Origin: an uncultured Bacteroidales bacterium
Lineage (GTDB): Bacteria; Bacteroidota; Bacteroidia; Bacteroidales; Paludibacteraceae
Direction: 5' to 3'
NCBI GenBank assembly: GCA_902785605.1
Contig: CACZZL010000021.1
Span: 1 to 52,994, forward strand
DNA length: 52,994 nt
Shown: positions 190 to 52,052 of the stretch, piece after piece
How the letters are laid out: each line of letters begins with the position of its first letter
How positions within the stretch are numbered: position 1 is the stretch's first letter
Made by a program: the position numbers and the translations under genes
Notes under the pieces: generated by a model
What the model was told of the DNA's origin: nothing
The model's database searches: none
The model's input: the letters and a program-made list of their open reading frames with translations, nothing else

Positions 190-220
190 TTGCATATCTC
201 AAAAAAATGTTGTACCTTCG
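190..220 (+). promoter_or_regulatory. promoter P1 of the leader element (TTG-N20-TACCTTCG)
   Basis: TTG at 190-192 and TA at 213-214 are separated by exactly 20 bases, as in the other promoters here. The -7 box reads TACCTTCG instead of TAnnTTTG. It would start an RNA through the conserved leader element 212-369. Confidence 0.5.
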
Positions 221-369
221 ACCTCCTCCCCCAGAGGGGCCCCTTCGAAAGTACGTTAGCACTGTTGTGCAAACGGCAATCTTTTAACCGAAGTAACTTC
301 CATGTGCAAGCACAGATGAATTATTTCGTTTAAAATCTTGCACATTTCAAAAATTTGTTGTACCTTTGC
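212..369 (+). repeat. 158-bp structured dispersed repeat, copy A
   Basis: This segment matches the reverse complement of 51687-51844 over its whole length, about three quarters identical by hand alignment with roughly one compensated single-base indel. It starts in one promoter -7 box and ends in another (361-369). Conserved features are an inverted repeat GTACCTTCGA/TCGAAAGTAC enclosing GGGGCCCC, a GCAC-TGTT-GTGC hairpin and a TGTGC-AA-GCACA hairpin. It precedes the aldo/keto reductase; copy B precedes rdgB. It may be a small-RNA or leader-RNA family, or a miniature mobile element that carries promoters. Confidence 0.75.
338..369 (+). promoter_or_regulatory. promoter of aldo/keto reductase operon
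   Basis: TTG at 338-340, 20 bases, then TACCTTTGC at 361-369. This is the Bacteroidetes primary-sigma promoter form, 27 bases before the ATG of the aldo/keto reductase. Confidence 0.8.
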
Positions 370-395: not shown

Positions 396-1244
396 ATGCA
401 AACGATTCGACTAAACAATGGCATCACAATGCCGCTTCTGGGCTACGGACTGTTCAAGGTGCCGCCTCAGGAGGCAGAGCGTTGTACGCGCGAAGCGCTC
501 GAAGTGGGGTACCGCCTCATTGATACCGCGCAAGCGTACGATAATGAACAAGGTGTAGGAGACGCGATTCGTCGTTCGGGCATCCCGCGCGAGGACATCT
601 TCATTGTCACGAAGATCTGGATTACCAATGCCGGCGAAGAGAAAGCCGCACGAAGCATTGAACAGAGCCTGCGCAAACTGCAAACGGACTACGTGGACCT
701 GTTGCTTATTCATCAGGCCTACGGGGATGTGTTCGGCTCCTGGCGCGCGATGGAGAAAGCGTACGCACAGGGGATGACACGCGCAATCGGTGTGAGTAAT
801 TTCCAGGCCTGCCGATTCTACGACTTCGCGTCTGTAGTGGATGTCAAGCCGGCCATCAACCAACTCCAGTGCTGCGTACTCTCGCAACAACGGACGATCC
901 TTCCGGAGATGGCGCGCTATGACACACAGATGATGGCATGGGGACCGTTAGGGCAAGGATCGGATGATCTGCTCAAGAGCCCTGTGCTGGCCTCTATCGG
1001 TGCGCAATACGGCAAGACGCCTGCACAAGTAGCCCTCAGATGGCTCATCGAACGCGGCATCGTAGCCATCCCCAAATCGATGCACAAAGAACGAATGGCG
1101 GCGAATTTCGACATCTTCGATTTCTCGCTCTCCGAGGCGGATATGCAGGCTATCGAACCGCTCAACCAACAAGACACCGGTTTCCGCGATTTCGCCGACC
1201 CCAATTACCTTCGCCGCATCATCGGTATGTTTGACCCCAAGTAA
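396..1244 (+). CDS. aldo/keto reductase
   Basis: A 282-residue cytosolic NAD(P)H-dependent oxidoreductase with a TIM-barrel fold. The family tetrad is visible: Asp in LIDTAQAYDNE, Tyr in the same segment, Lys in VTKIWI and His in LLIHQAYG. The C-terminal part has the cofactor-binding region around AIPKSMHKERM. Length and pattern match the small DkgA/YvgN-like reductases of 2-oxo acids and aldehydes; the real substrate cannot be read. The frame can be extended to a TTG at 366, but that codon lies inside the -7 box, so the ATG at 396 is the start. A DUF2130 gene follows after 25 bases and is probably cotranscribed. Confidence 0.9.
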   Translation: MQTIRLNNGITMPLLGYGLFKVPPQEAERCTREALEVGYRLIDTAQAYDNEQGVGDAIRRSGIPREDIFIVTKIWITNAGEEKAARSIEQSLRKLQTDYVDLLLIHQAYGDVFGSWRAMEKAYAQGMTRAIGVSNFQACRFYDFASVVDVKPAINQLQCCVLSQQRTILPEMARYDTQMMAWGPLGQGSDDLLKSPVLASIGAQYGKTPAQVALRWLIERGIVAIPKSMHKERMAANFDIFDFSLSEADMQAIEPLNQQDTGFRDFADPNYLRRIIGMFDPK

Positions 1245-6873: not shown

Positions 6874-7051
6874 GAGAATAAAAAATTAATTTAAGTTATT
6901 TGTGTTTTTATTGTATCTCTGTTTCTTGGGGATTGCTTCGTCGCTTCACTCCTTGCAAGCCCAGCCTACCGGTGGTATCCTGGGCAAGTCTTTTGCTTCA
7001 GCCGTGTCCGTAAGCGAGCTTCCTTCCCCGGCTCGTAGCAAAATCCTTTGC

Positions 7052-7138
7052 GGAGAGACGGGGATTCGAACCCCGGAAACCCTTTTGGAGTTTACACGCT
7101 TTCCAGGCGTGCCTCTTCAACCACTCGAGCATCTCTCC
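7052..7138 (-). tRNA. tRNA-Ser(GGA)
   Basis: The acceptor stem pairs GGAGAGA with TCTCTCC, the discriminator is G, the anticodon loop CTGGAAA gives anticodon GGA, and a long variable arm and T-loop TTCGAAT are present. CCA is not encoded. A promoter lies at 7176-7207. It stands first in line before the exb operon on the same strand. Confidence 0.95.
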
Positions 7139-50921: not shown

Positions 50922-51653
50922 TTATAGTATTTGAACGAGCGCTTGCAGTGCGCGTGCGCGGTGGCTGATGCCGTTCTTTATTTCTGCCGGCAGTTCGCCG
51001 AAGGTCTTGTCGTAGCCTTCCGGAATAAAAACAGGGTCATAGCCGAAGCCGCCTACACCATACTCTTCGGTAGCAATGCGTCCGCGAACTACGCCGCTAA
51101 CCTGAATTTCTGACGGCTGACTGCTGATGGCTGATAGCTTAATCAGTGTGATCACCGTGCGGAACTGTGCGCCTCGGTTCGTCTTGCCGTCCAATTCACG
51201 GAGTGCTTTGGCTCGGTTAGCCGCAAAAATATCTTTTTCTGTTAATGGGGTCCCCGAAAATTTTAATTTTTGGGGAGAGCGGAGCTCCCGAGGACTTCCT
51301 ACCAAAACGGGGTTTTGGTACATGTCCGAGGGGTGCGAACGCGAGTACCAACGCGCGGTGTACACGCCCGGTTGGCCGTTCAACGCATCGATCTCCAAAC
51401 CCGTATCATCAGCAAAGACGCCATCAATGCTTTCACCATTAAGCGCAGCGTCACCATTCATCAATCCATCATTGATAAAAGCGGCGACTGTCGATGCTTT
51501 TATATAGCTGTTGGCTTCCAGCGTAGTACCGTTCTCCTCGATCTCTTGCTCAAAACCGATATCGTGCAGACTGAGAATCTGTACCTCTGCGGGCATGATC
51601 GCACGCACTTCGTCTAACTTATGGGCATTATTGGATGCAAAGACTAATTTCAT
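50922..51653 (-). CDS. rdgB: non-canonical purine NTP pyrophosphatase with repeat-derived insertions
   Basis: A 243-residue RdgB/HAM1-type enzyme that clears ITP/XTP from the nucleotide pool. Core motifs are intact: LVFASNNAHKLDEVRAIM (substrate loop), FADDTGLEIDALNGQPGVYTARW, KTNRGAQFRTVITLI, GVGGFGYDPVFIPEGYDKTFGELP and NGISHRARALQAL. The family is normally about 195 residues. The excess lies in three repeat-encoded, in-frame stretches: AAFINDGLMNGDAALNGES (51420-51482), YSRSHPSDMY to KLKFSGTP (51246-51360) and AISSQPSEIQ (51109-51145). Promoter at 51687. Confidence 0.9.
   Translation of the reverse strand: MKLVFASNNAHKLDEVRAIMPAEVQILSLHDIGFEQEIEENGTTLEANSYIKASTVAAFINDGLMNGDAALNGESIDGVFADDTGLEIDALNGQPGVYTARWYSRSHPSDMYQNPVLVGSPRELRSPQKLKFSGTPLTEKDIFAANRAKALRELDGKTNRGAQFRTVITLIKLSAISSQPSEIQVSGVVRGRIATEEYGVGGFGYDPVFIPEGYDKTFGELPAEIKNGISHRARALQALVQIL
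51109..51145. repeat. in-frame short-period repeat inside rdgB (GGCTGA type)
   Basis: TGACGGCTGACTGCTGATGG continues with CTGATAGCTTAA. Translated on the minus strand as KLSAISSQPSEIQ, between two conserved strands. Confidence 0.6.
51246..51360. repeat. palindromic repeat element inserted in frame in rdgB
   Basis: Contains the 30 bases identical to 34600-34629 (here 51252-51281), then a second hairpin TACCAAAAC...GTTTTGGTA (about 51300-51321). The element replaces the short loop after SARY/TARW found in ordinary RdgB and adds about 30 residues without breaking the frame. This recalls Rickettsia palindromic elements, which insert in frame in genes. Confidence 0.75.
51420..51482. repeat. in-frame repeat inside rdgB, related to the nfnAB linker repeat
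   Basis: Contains CACCATTAAGCGCAGCGTC, ACCATTCATCAATCCATCAT. The nfnAB linker (28430-28550) has the same pieces in the same order on the same strand (CATTAAGC, GCGTCACCATT, CAATCCATCATT), although the two genes are read in opposite directions. Confidence 0.6.
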
Positions 51654-51686: not shown

Positions 51687-51718
51687 GCAAAGGTACTACA
51701 AATTTTCCAAATTTGCAA
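51687..51718 (-). promoter_or_regulatory. promoter of rdgB (P2 of element B)
   Basis: Minus-strand TTG (51718-51716), 20 bases, TACCTTTGC (51695-51687); 33 bases before the rdgB ATG. Confidence 0.8.
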
Positions 51719-51844
51719 TATTTTTAGTAAAAAAATATCGTCTGTGCTTGCACAAGCGTAGTTTTATACTAAAAATATTGAAGTTTGCACGACAGTGCGA
51801 ACGGACCTTCGAGGGGCCCCTTTAGGGTAGTAGGTCGAAAGTAC
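51687..51844 (-). repeat. 158-bp structured dispersed repeat, copy B
   Basis: Reverse-complement match of 212-369, same length, running from one -7 box to another. Conserved hairpins GCAC-TGTC-GTGC and TGTGC-AA-GCACA, and the inverted repeat GTACTTTCGA/TCGAAGGTCC; the third base pair region varies against copy A. It forms the leader region of rdgB. Confidence 0.75.
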
Positions 51845-51866
51845 GAAAAATAAATGACATACACAA
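51836..51866 (-). promoter_or_regulatory. promoter P1 of element B (TTG-N20-TACTTTCG)
   Basis: Minus-strand TTG (51866-51864), 20 bases, TACTTTCG (51843-51836). Same TTCG-type -7 box and position relative to the element as P1 of copy A, although the upstream flank is unrelated. Confidence 0.5.
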
Positions 51867-51902
51867 AAAAAAGTGACATAATCTTGCGATTACATCACTT
51901 TT
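51864..51902 (-). terminator. intrinsic terminator of candidate small RNA
   Basis: On the minus strand AAAAGTGATGTAATC (51902-51888) pairs with GATTATGTCACTTTT (51883-51869) with two mismatches, loop GCAA, followed by a T-run. No protein gene lies just upstream on this strand, so it must end an RNA. Confidence 0.75.
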
Positions 51903-52052
51903 GTGCGCAGGATGAGACTCGAACTCACACGAAATCTGGGTCGAAACCTCATTTTTCTCCCTGACTATCAATCAGTTAGTTAGCAATTTCAAATATCATT
52001 TTACGTTAGGATGGTTTGGGCAGATTTTGGGTCATTTCCTTTCCATCCAAAT
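51870..52052 (-). ncRNA. candidate small RNA with tRNA-like 3' end
   Basis: A promoter of the standard form (52058-52089) and an intrinsic terminator (51864-51902) bound a transcript of about 180 bases without a convincing protein gene. The last part before the terminator reads like a tRNA T-arm and acceptor strand (GTGAG-TTCGAGT-CTCAT then CCTGCGCA). No matching 5' tRNA half is present. A 9-codon reading frame (MTQNLPKPS) lies near its 5' end after a GGAAAGGA. Alternatives: attachment-site scar of an element inserted in a tRNA gene, or a leader RNA. I cannot match it to a named RNA family. Confidence 0.45.

Follow-up and report, generated by a model that had tools for sequence, protein, structure and literature searches.

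The two 158-bp repeats found in this DNA are probably copies of a mobile element family, about 150 bp in length, that inserts into the -7 boxes of promoters. By the window we mean the whole stretch analysed, the 52,994 nt of contig CACZZL010000021.1 (assembly GCA_902785605.1, an uncultured Bacteroidales bacterium of the Paludibacteraceae). A short non-autonomous element would enter ordinary promoters at the -7 box (GTAnnTTTG) and would nearly always face the same way as the gene that follows. Of the host promoter so split, the upstream half would become P1, which points into the element, while the -33 box of the element and the right-hand -7 box would form P2 and take over transcription of the gene. 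Because P2 would do so, the insertion would be tolerated and P1 would be free to decay. The original prediction had suggested, as one possibility, a miniature element that mobilises promoters. Further copies, a target-site-like repeat and empty sites largely bear this out, but only half a promoter is brought, that of the host is split, and the ends are not inverted. Our confidence covers mobile insertion into -7 boxes, and two rivals concerned with the agent (recombination and a known recombinase class) overlap with it.

Copies in the window and empty sites

With positions 200-375 as the BLAST query, 212-369 and 51687-51844 (minus strand) align over their full length (78% identity, E 2.2e-27), close to the 75% or so counted by hand when the repeat was predicted to be present twice in inverted orientation. 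The alignment ends at both repeat borders and leaves the flanks unaligned, as expected from flanks that had been called unrelated. Each copy can be read as a left GTAnnTT box, a 141-bp body and a right GTAnnTT box. The predicted promoters (TTG, 20 nt, box) are legible at both repeat ends, and the mirror copy shows identical spacings. The features of the two copies are as follows.

190..220, plus strand: P1 of copy a; TTG 190-192, 20 nt, TACCTTCG 213-220; read from the sequence
212..218, plus strand: left GTACCTT of copy a, target-site-like repeat; from left/right agreement of nn across copies
219..359, plus strand: element body of copy a, 141 bp; identity of close copies drops outside the GTAnnTT boxes
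338..369, plus strand: P2 of copy a; element-borne TTG 338-340, 20 nt, TACCTTTG 361-368
360..366, plus strand: right GTACCTT of copy a; from the sequence and the nn statistics
51836..51866, minus strand: P1 of copy b, the host promoter; uninterrupted in G091
51838..51844, minus strand: left GTACTTT of copy b; from the sequence
51697..51837, minus strand: element body of copy b, 141 bp; missing between aligned flanks in G091:C149 (L210) and L209
51687..51718, minus strand: P2 of copy b; TTG 51718-51716, right GTACCTT 51696-51690, then TGC

The rdgB promoter of G091 (L210) is without the element and agrees with the window at 91% over 249 nt across the junction, upstream as far as GTAC and downstream from CTTTG, which places the join inside the -7 box. 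The rdgB site of L209 is also empty (71% agreement). Uninterrupted, the rdgB site is a promoter of the form TTG-20-TACCTTTG; this assignment rests on the alignments and the sequences, the MAFFT view having misplaced the left flank there. From the empty rdgB site and the presence of GTAnnTT on both sides of the element, we read P1 as the split host promoter and P2 as rebuilt from the element-borne -33 box. By analogy, P1 of copy a is read as a host promoter split by insertion; comparison with relatives yielded no informative empty site for copy a or for the recA copy.

There are further empty sites at other loci. The copy in G190 was compared with six loci (L222, L223, L212, L204, L200 and L224) and the copy in G200 with two of them (L222 and L223), and the empty loci show a plain promoter in both comparisons. 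The left flank of G200 still resembles the empty site, and part of that of G190 is gone relative to the empty loci. Since the G190 and G200 elements differ greatly, one old insertion and two separate insertions are both possible. In the near-identical species pair G113 and G073, whose downstream gene is 98.5% identical over 260 nt, G113 carries the element and G073 only a plain promoter. The left flank of G113 has been exchanged as well, and its right nn is unlike that of the empty site. At the same gene G003 also carries the element; in the 130 nt displayed, six relatives including G073 have the promoter without an element, and L280 has neither of the two. Presence in both G113 and G003 may point to separate insertions into the same -7 box. 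In outline, the G190/G200 locus and the G113/G073 pair agree with the empty rdgB site. Thus, the two signs by which a mobile element was to be recognised, a target-site-like duplication and empty sites, have both been found. All of this evidence comes from draft genomes, and movement itself was not seen.

Empty sites could also arise if the copies were old and had been lost by slippage between the GTAnnTT repeats, as such a deletion would likewise leave one promoter precisely. We regard this as very improbable: of 30 rdgB loci only 3 have a copy nearby, two of them at a site other than that in the window, copies at unrelated loci of the same genome are up to 98% alike (G113 and G026; 96% in G002), and the family is confined to one genus of 33.

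Several other features of the window lie close to the copies or were met in the same survey. Positions 110-211, near the contig end, hold several TGCCAA..TGTCC repeats. In G140:C34, 196 nt of the left flank of copy a recur at 92% in front of another element copy whose downstream gene is a different one; this flank may belong to the end of a larger repeat, or may have arisen when sequences were rearranged at the element. On the minus strand, 51900-52010 lies upstream of rdgB copy b and contains an apparent decayed tRNA-Leu gene, the 3' half of which resembles the tRNA-Leu (gag) that ARAGORN reports in L209 and L213; ARAGORN reports no such gene at this site or in L207. A tRNA-Ser (gga) is called by ARAGORN at 7050-7138, below the gathering score of the Rfam tRNA model.

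Junctions and promoter spacing

A total of 156 hits reduced to 129 distinct ones, of which 26 were without a recognisable left box and 8 without a right one (2 without both), leaving 97 copies. The nn of GTAnnTT is the same on the left and right in 48 of the 97, against a shuffle mean of 21.7 and with none of 10000 shuffles as high. When shuffling was done within genomes, with copies assigned to genomes by hand, the agreement was 35 of 74 against 22.0 (again 0 of 10000). In the other 49 of the 97 copies nn is unlike on the two sides, through later change or otherwise.

The two promoters differ in how well their spacing is kept. The TTG of P2 lies exactly 20 nt from the TA in 120 of 121 copies. 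Since the last positions of our covariance model R1 include this TTG, the model partly selects for its presence, though not for its distance from the -7 box. A TTG is found at that spacing in P1 in 35 of 102 copies, no other distance occurring in more than 7. P1 thus has the look of a relic of the target in decay, and P2 that of the working promoter. Tandem copies with one box in common occur in L071, L182 and, with a single base altered, L180; it looks as though one element went into the P2 box of another.

The strongest rival invokes no enzyme: the element would be copied by homologous or template-switch recombination between its promoter-like ends and other promoters. Both ends are indeed ordinary promoter sequence, about 40 additional partial BLAST matches to the P2 part occur in this genome, the left flank is replaced in G113/G073, some copies have a longer left end in common, and the searches for Y1, IS110, RVT_1 and tyrosine recombinase genes described below pointed to no agent. 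We nevertheless consider this account doubtful, though a serious contender, for three reasons: (i) among the 25 most alike pairs of copies with unrelated right flanks (at least 88% identity), identity drops at GTA to near the control level, (ii) the spacing is fixed and GTAnnTT agrees on the two sides, and (iii) several of the empty host promoters have a different spacer type. In these close pairs, left-flank identity is 0.57, 0.50 and 0.49 (control 0.50, 0.36 and 0.35), the first value being that directly left of GTA, and is thus somewhat above the control; on the right beyond the box it is 0.58 against 0.48.

Solo footprints of P2 were considered and set aside, as the 24 promoter matches inspected mostly look like ordinary promoters; L012 and L025 among them belong to weak or further copies. 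Some ordinary promoters of this genome (L005, L020, L026 and L028) have an AT-rich palindrome-like stretch ending in ATTAAAATC immediately before the -33 box.

Hairpins, distribution and downstream genes

As RNA, the first 131 nt fold better than shuffled sequences in both copies (z -5.6 for a and -5.2 for b; 0 of 200 shuffles each), into three hairpins.

212..254, plus strand: hairpin A; GTAnnTTCGR 212-221 with YCGAAnnTAC 245-254 and a variable upper stem; from folds and covariation of an R-Y pair
255..274, plus strand: hairpin B; GTTAGCAC / TGTT / GTGCAAAC; from folds and covariation
277..340, plus strand: hairpin C; apical loop CAAG 307-310, its 3' foot being the P2 TTG; from folds and covariation

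Between its stems hairpin A has an unpaired CCnCCnC/ACCCC part, followed by the variable upper stem, and hairpin B can be written as GTTCGCAC-4 nt-GTGCAAAC. The stems GCAC/GTGC and TGTGC/GCACA had been described as exactly conserved, which is true of the two window copies, but across the family they covary. In a 20-copy alignment, 83.9% of the paired cells are filled by pairs against 75.2 in shuffles (0 of 500 reach this; slid versions of the structure stay at or below 45.4%), double changes occur in 25 of 45 pairs against a shuffle mean of 15.4 (0 of 500), the covariation score is 0.204 against 0.081 (0 of 500), and further pair types number 44 against 36.0 (3 of 500 as high); independent events are fewer than these counts, as the structure was drawn from the same sequences and copies within a genome are alike. 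Among 67 copies in an alignment fitted to the covariance model, the R-Y pair of hairpin A is GC in 34 and AT in 30, and one pair of hairpin C is GC in 22 and CG in 20. The compensatory changes by which the hairpins were to be checked are therefore present. They are what a structured RNA should show, and they are equally expected of a DNA hairpin.

An RNA fold is expected to favour G.T over A.C mismatches. On 33 well-paired columns of the 67 copies the two are about equal (G.T 30, A.C 35), so no strand can be inferred; the 20-copy alignment has more A.C (27) than G.T (10), and a small control of 40 tRNA acceptor stems gave G.T 6 and A.C 3. Two recurring inserts, one with GCCATCCGAGGC and one with CAAGGG.ACGATT, replace hairpin loops across species (L033, L114 and L055; L182, L180 and L055), as if the loops accepted further small modules.

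The covariance model R1 (132 positions) was built from 20 copies, which score high by construction. At E 0.01, 125 of the 178 genomes of the genus have matches to it, including 43 of the 68 good ones; some genomes have a single weak match, and with 19 candidates scored per genome copy numbers are lower bounds. Across 149 genomes of the order the only match is in this genome. A family-wide search with stricter filters and 9 candidates scored each gave matches at E 0.001 in 118 of 358 genomes, with one genus of 33 represented. When 150 candidates were scored in each of six genomes, copies at E <1e-6 numbered 21 in G113, 17 in G190, 9 in G002, 5 in the genome studied here (G000) and 0 in both G007 and G011. 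The further copies that a covariance model was expected to reveal thus exist in this genome and in its relatives. The exact pattern of hairpins A and B occurs in at least 80 stretches of named genomes; those listed are all titled Bacteroidales or Paludibacteraceae, and many of them are of ruminant gut origin. One exact pattern searched in viral contigs was absent, and we set a phage origin aside.

At the gathering cut-off Rfam finds only tRNAs in the window and has no family for the element. The Clostridiales-1 model (cut-off 48) reaches 24 bits on the other strand of both window copies, 22 and 21 bits on the two strands of L047, 16 bits in L037 and nothing in L086, and miRNA models reach 29 bits in L086 and 30 in L037, far below cut-off. 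We rejected Clostridiales-1 as unspecific: in the three other copies its match falls on either strand or is absent, and two of those three score higher with miRNA models. As neither Rfam nor the literature searched holds a description, we file the copies as small non-autonomous mobile elements of an apparently undescribed family, novelty being judged from these two sources.

Of 71 copies with flanks, 65 have their main downstream ORF on the same strand and 5 on the opposite strand, and in 1 it is missing at a contig end; in 52 of the 71 it starts within 130 nt. The copies of the window had been predicted to lead an aldo/keto reductase gene and rdgB; the resemblance to both families holds, but both proteins fall below the curated cut-offs.

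396..1244, plus strand: aldo/keto reductase, DkgA-like; 233.6 bits, cut-off 425
50922..51653, minus strand: rdgB-like non-canonical purine NTP pyrophosphatase; TIGR00042 141.6 bits, cut-off 145.35

Ten downstream proteins were checked. LepA, RecA, PheT, TyrS, DNA polymerase III alpha and Pta pass their family cut-offs. The two window proteins, superoxide dismutase and MurF/alanine racemase, which is truncated at the end of its locus, resemble their families but score below the respective cut-offs. There was no obvious common theme among the ten. The RdgB-like protein has an extra stretch at about residues 105-137, where the match breaks in many relatives.

The leader or small-RNA family that had been suggested fares less well than mobile DNA. 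A structured RNA transcribed from P1 could act as a cis regulator of the downstream gene or as a trans regulator of other genes and would have spread incidentally, and the three-hairpin fold that covaries, the position of copies before genes in their orientation and the complete P1 of both window copies all suit it. However, the P1 -33 box is in place in just 35 of 102 copies. Transcripts usually start 3' of the -7 box, and the 5' arm of hairpin A lies inside that box, ahead of the expected start, so that the arm would be outside the P1 transcript. The near parity of G.T and A.C, the replacement of some loops by unrelated inserts, the variety of the ten genes and the difference in presence between near-identical genomes also speak against an RNA, which we judge improbable.

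Mobilising agent and known systems

If the element is mobile DNA, a trans-acting enzyme may recognise its hairpins in their DNA form, a step for which we see the chances as about evenly balanced. Searches of carriers for Y1, IS110, RVT_1 and tyrosine recombinase genes, made on draft genomes (G000 is 83.5% complete), did not reveal such an enzyme. Y1_Tnp was found at E 1e-10 in 6 of 178 genomes and not in G000, G113 or G190, and a REP/RAYT or IS200/IS605 derivative was rejected as a general explanation because most carriers tested are without this transposase. We likewise rejected an IS110 derivative (transposase in 1 of 12 genomes, G188) and a retroelement (RVT_1 in 2 of 12, G002 and G188). 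Tyrosine recombinases (PF00589, E 1e-8) number two each in G000, G190, G035 and G188 and three or four in G113, G112 and G200 (three in G113, four in G200). Both of those in G000 and in G190 match best as XerC/XerD, below the equivalog cut-offs. An integron cassette or attC was rejected for these two genomes, whose recombinases score 130-143 bits with TIGR02249 (cut-off 265).

The element is short and multicopy and has a target-site duplication (nn the same in 48 of 97 copies, unlike in 49). The left 20 nt and the reverse complement of the right 20 nt are identical at a mean of 3.4 of 20 positions over 97 copies, so that there are no terminal inverted repeats and a classical MITE was rejected. 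The element nonetheless behaves like one, being short, multicopy and, by its empty sites, mobile.

The internal arm of hairpin A offers a hint at how it might move. Among the 93 of the 97 copies with a readable arm, the arm nn match the right box in 40 (shuffle mean 15.7; 0 of 5000), and hardly match the left box (16 against 10.6; 203 of 5000). Within genomes, for the 72 copies from genomes with more than one, the right box is matched in 31 against 20.5 (4 of 10000) and the left in 11 against 9.3 (2639 of 10000). In an excised circle, the right-end GTAnnTT would adjoin CGR and could pair with the internal arm YCGAAnnTAC, which would explain why the arm follows the right box and hardly the left. 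More than any other observation, this match hints that a folded form is excised. Hairpin A would then be the attachment site of such a form, folded and single-stranded, a tentative idea that we would not call likely.

Alternatively, one of the known recombinase classes (IS200/IS605, IS110, an integron or a CTnDOT-like integrase) might carry the element as a non-autonomous passenger. The attachment site of CTnDOT, GTANNTTTGC, has the same sequence as the target of the element, and hairpin A is laid out like the folded recombination site that integron attC forms. However, the families are absent from most carriers tested, or represented by XerC/XerD only (G000 and G190), and GTANNTTTGC was not found in the literature searched; we think this account unlikely.

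Should the excised form exist, the family would represent a novel kind of mobile DNA with a sigma-factor box as its target, perhaps as opened by RNA polymerase, and it would be moved by a housekeeping (Xer) or some other recombinase. Copies precede recA, dnaE and pheT genes. By targeting a promoter box and bringing the missing half at the right spacing, an element could colonise the regulatory regions of essential genes while doing little damage. Within one genus many unrelated genes would have their promoters rewired in the same way, and the element would be a handle on how mobile elements read a sigma-factor site.

Several known systems share some of these properties. CTnDOT and IntDOT attachment sites resemble the element in their target, GTANNTTTGC, but CTnDOT is a large conjugative element with its own integrase. 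Correia elements of Neisseria have 26 bp inverted repeats and a TA target. As far as described in the part of the literature consulted, they resemble the element in being short, present in many copies, located mainly just upstream of genes and promoter-bearing, and differ in that they are MITEs with terminal inverted repeats, whereas the element here has none and targets the promoter -7 box (PMC10969869). The BrickBuilt MITE of Porphyromonas gingivalis is likewise from the Bacteroidales, intergenic, without an internal transposase and with promoter activity, but it has its own terminal inverted repeats and a 23-nt repeat, and the sections consulted describe no promoter target (PMC4596501). BOX, RUP and SPRITE of Streptococcus pneumoniae are modular, highly paired, inferred to be parasitic and inserted into one another; BOX differs in terminal inverted repeats resembling ISSpn2, and the portions consulted describe no promoter target for any of the three (PMC3049150). 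Finally, the FopS small RNAs of Bacteroides are multicopy and paralogous and have a canonical Bacteroides promoter. They consist, in the excerpt consulted, of a single-stranded 5' part and a terminator hairpin, whereas the element has three hairpins at the promoters of other genes, and on this description of their architecture the two are set apart (PMC11697453).
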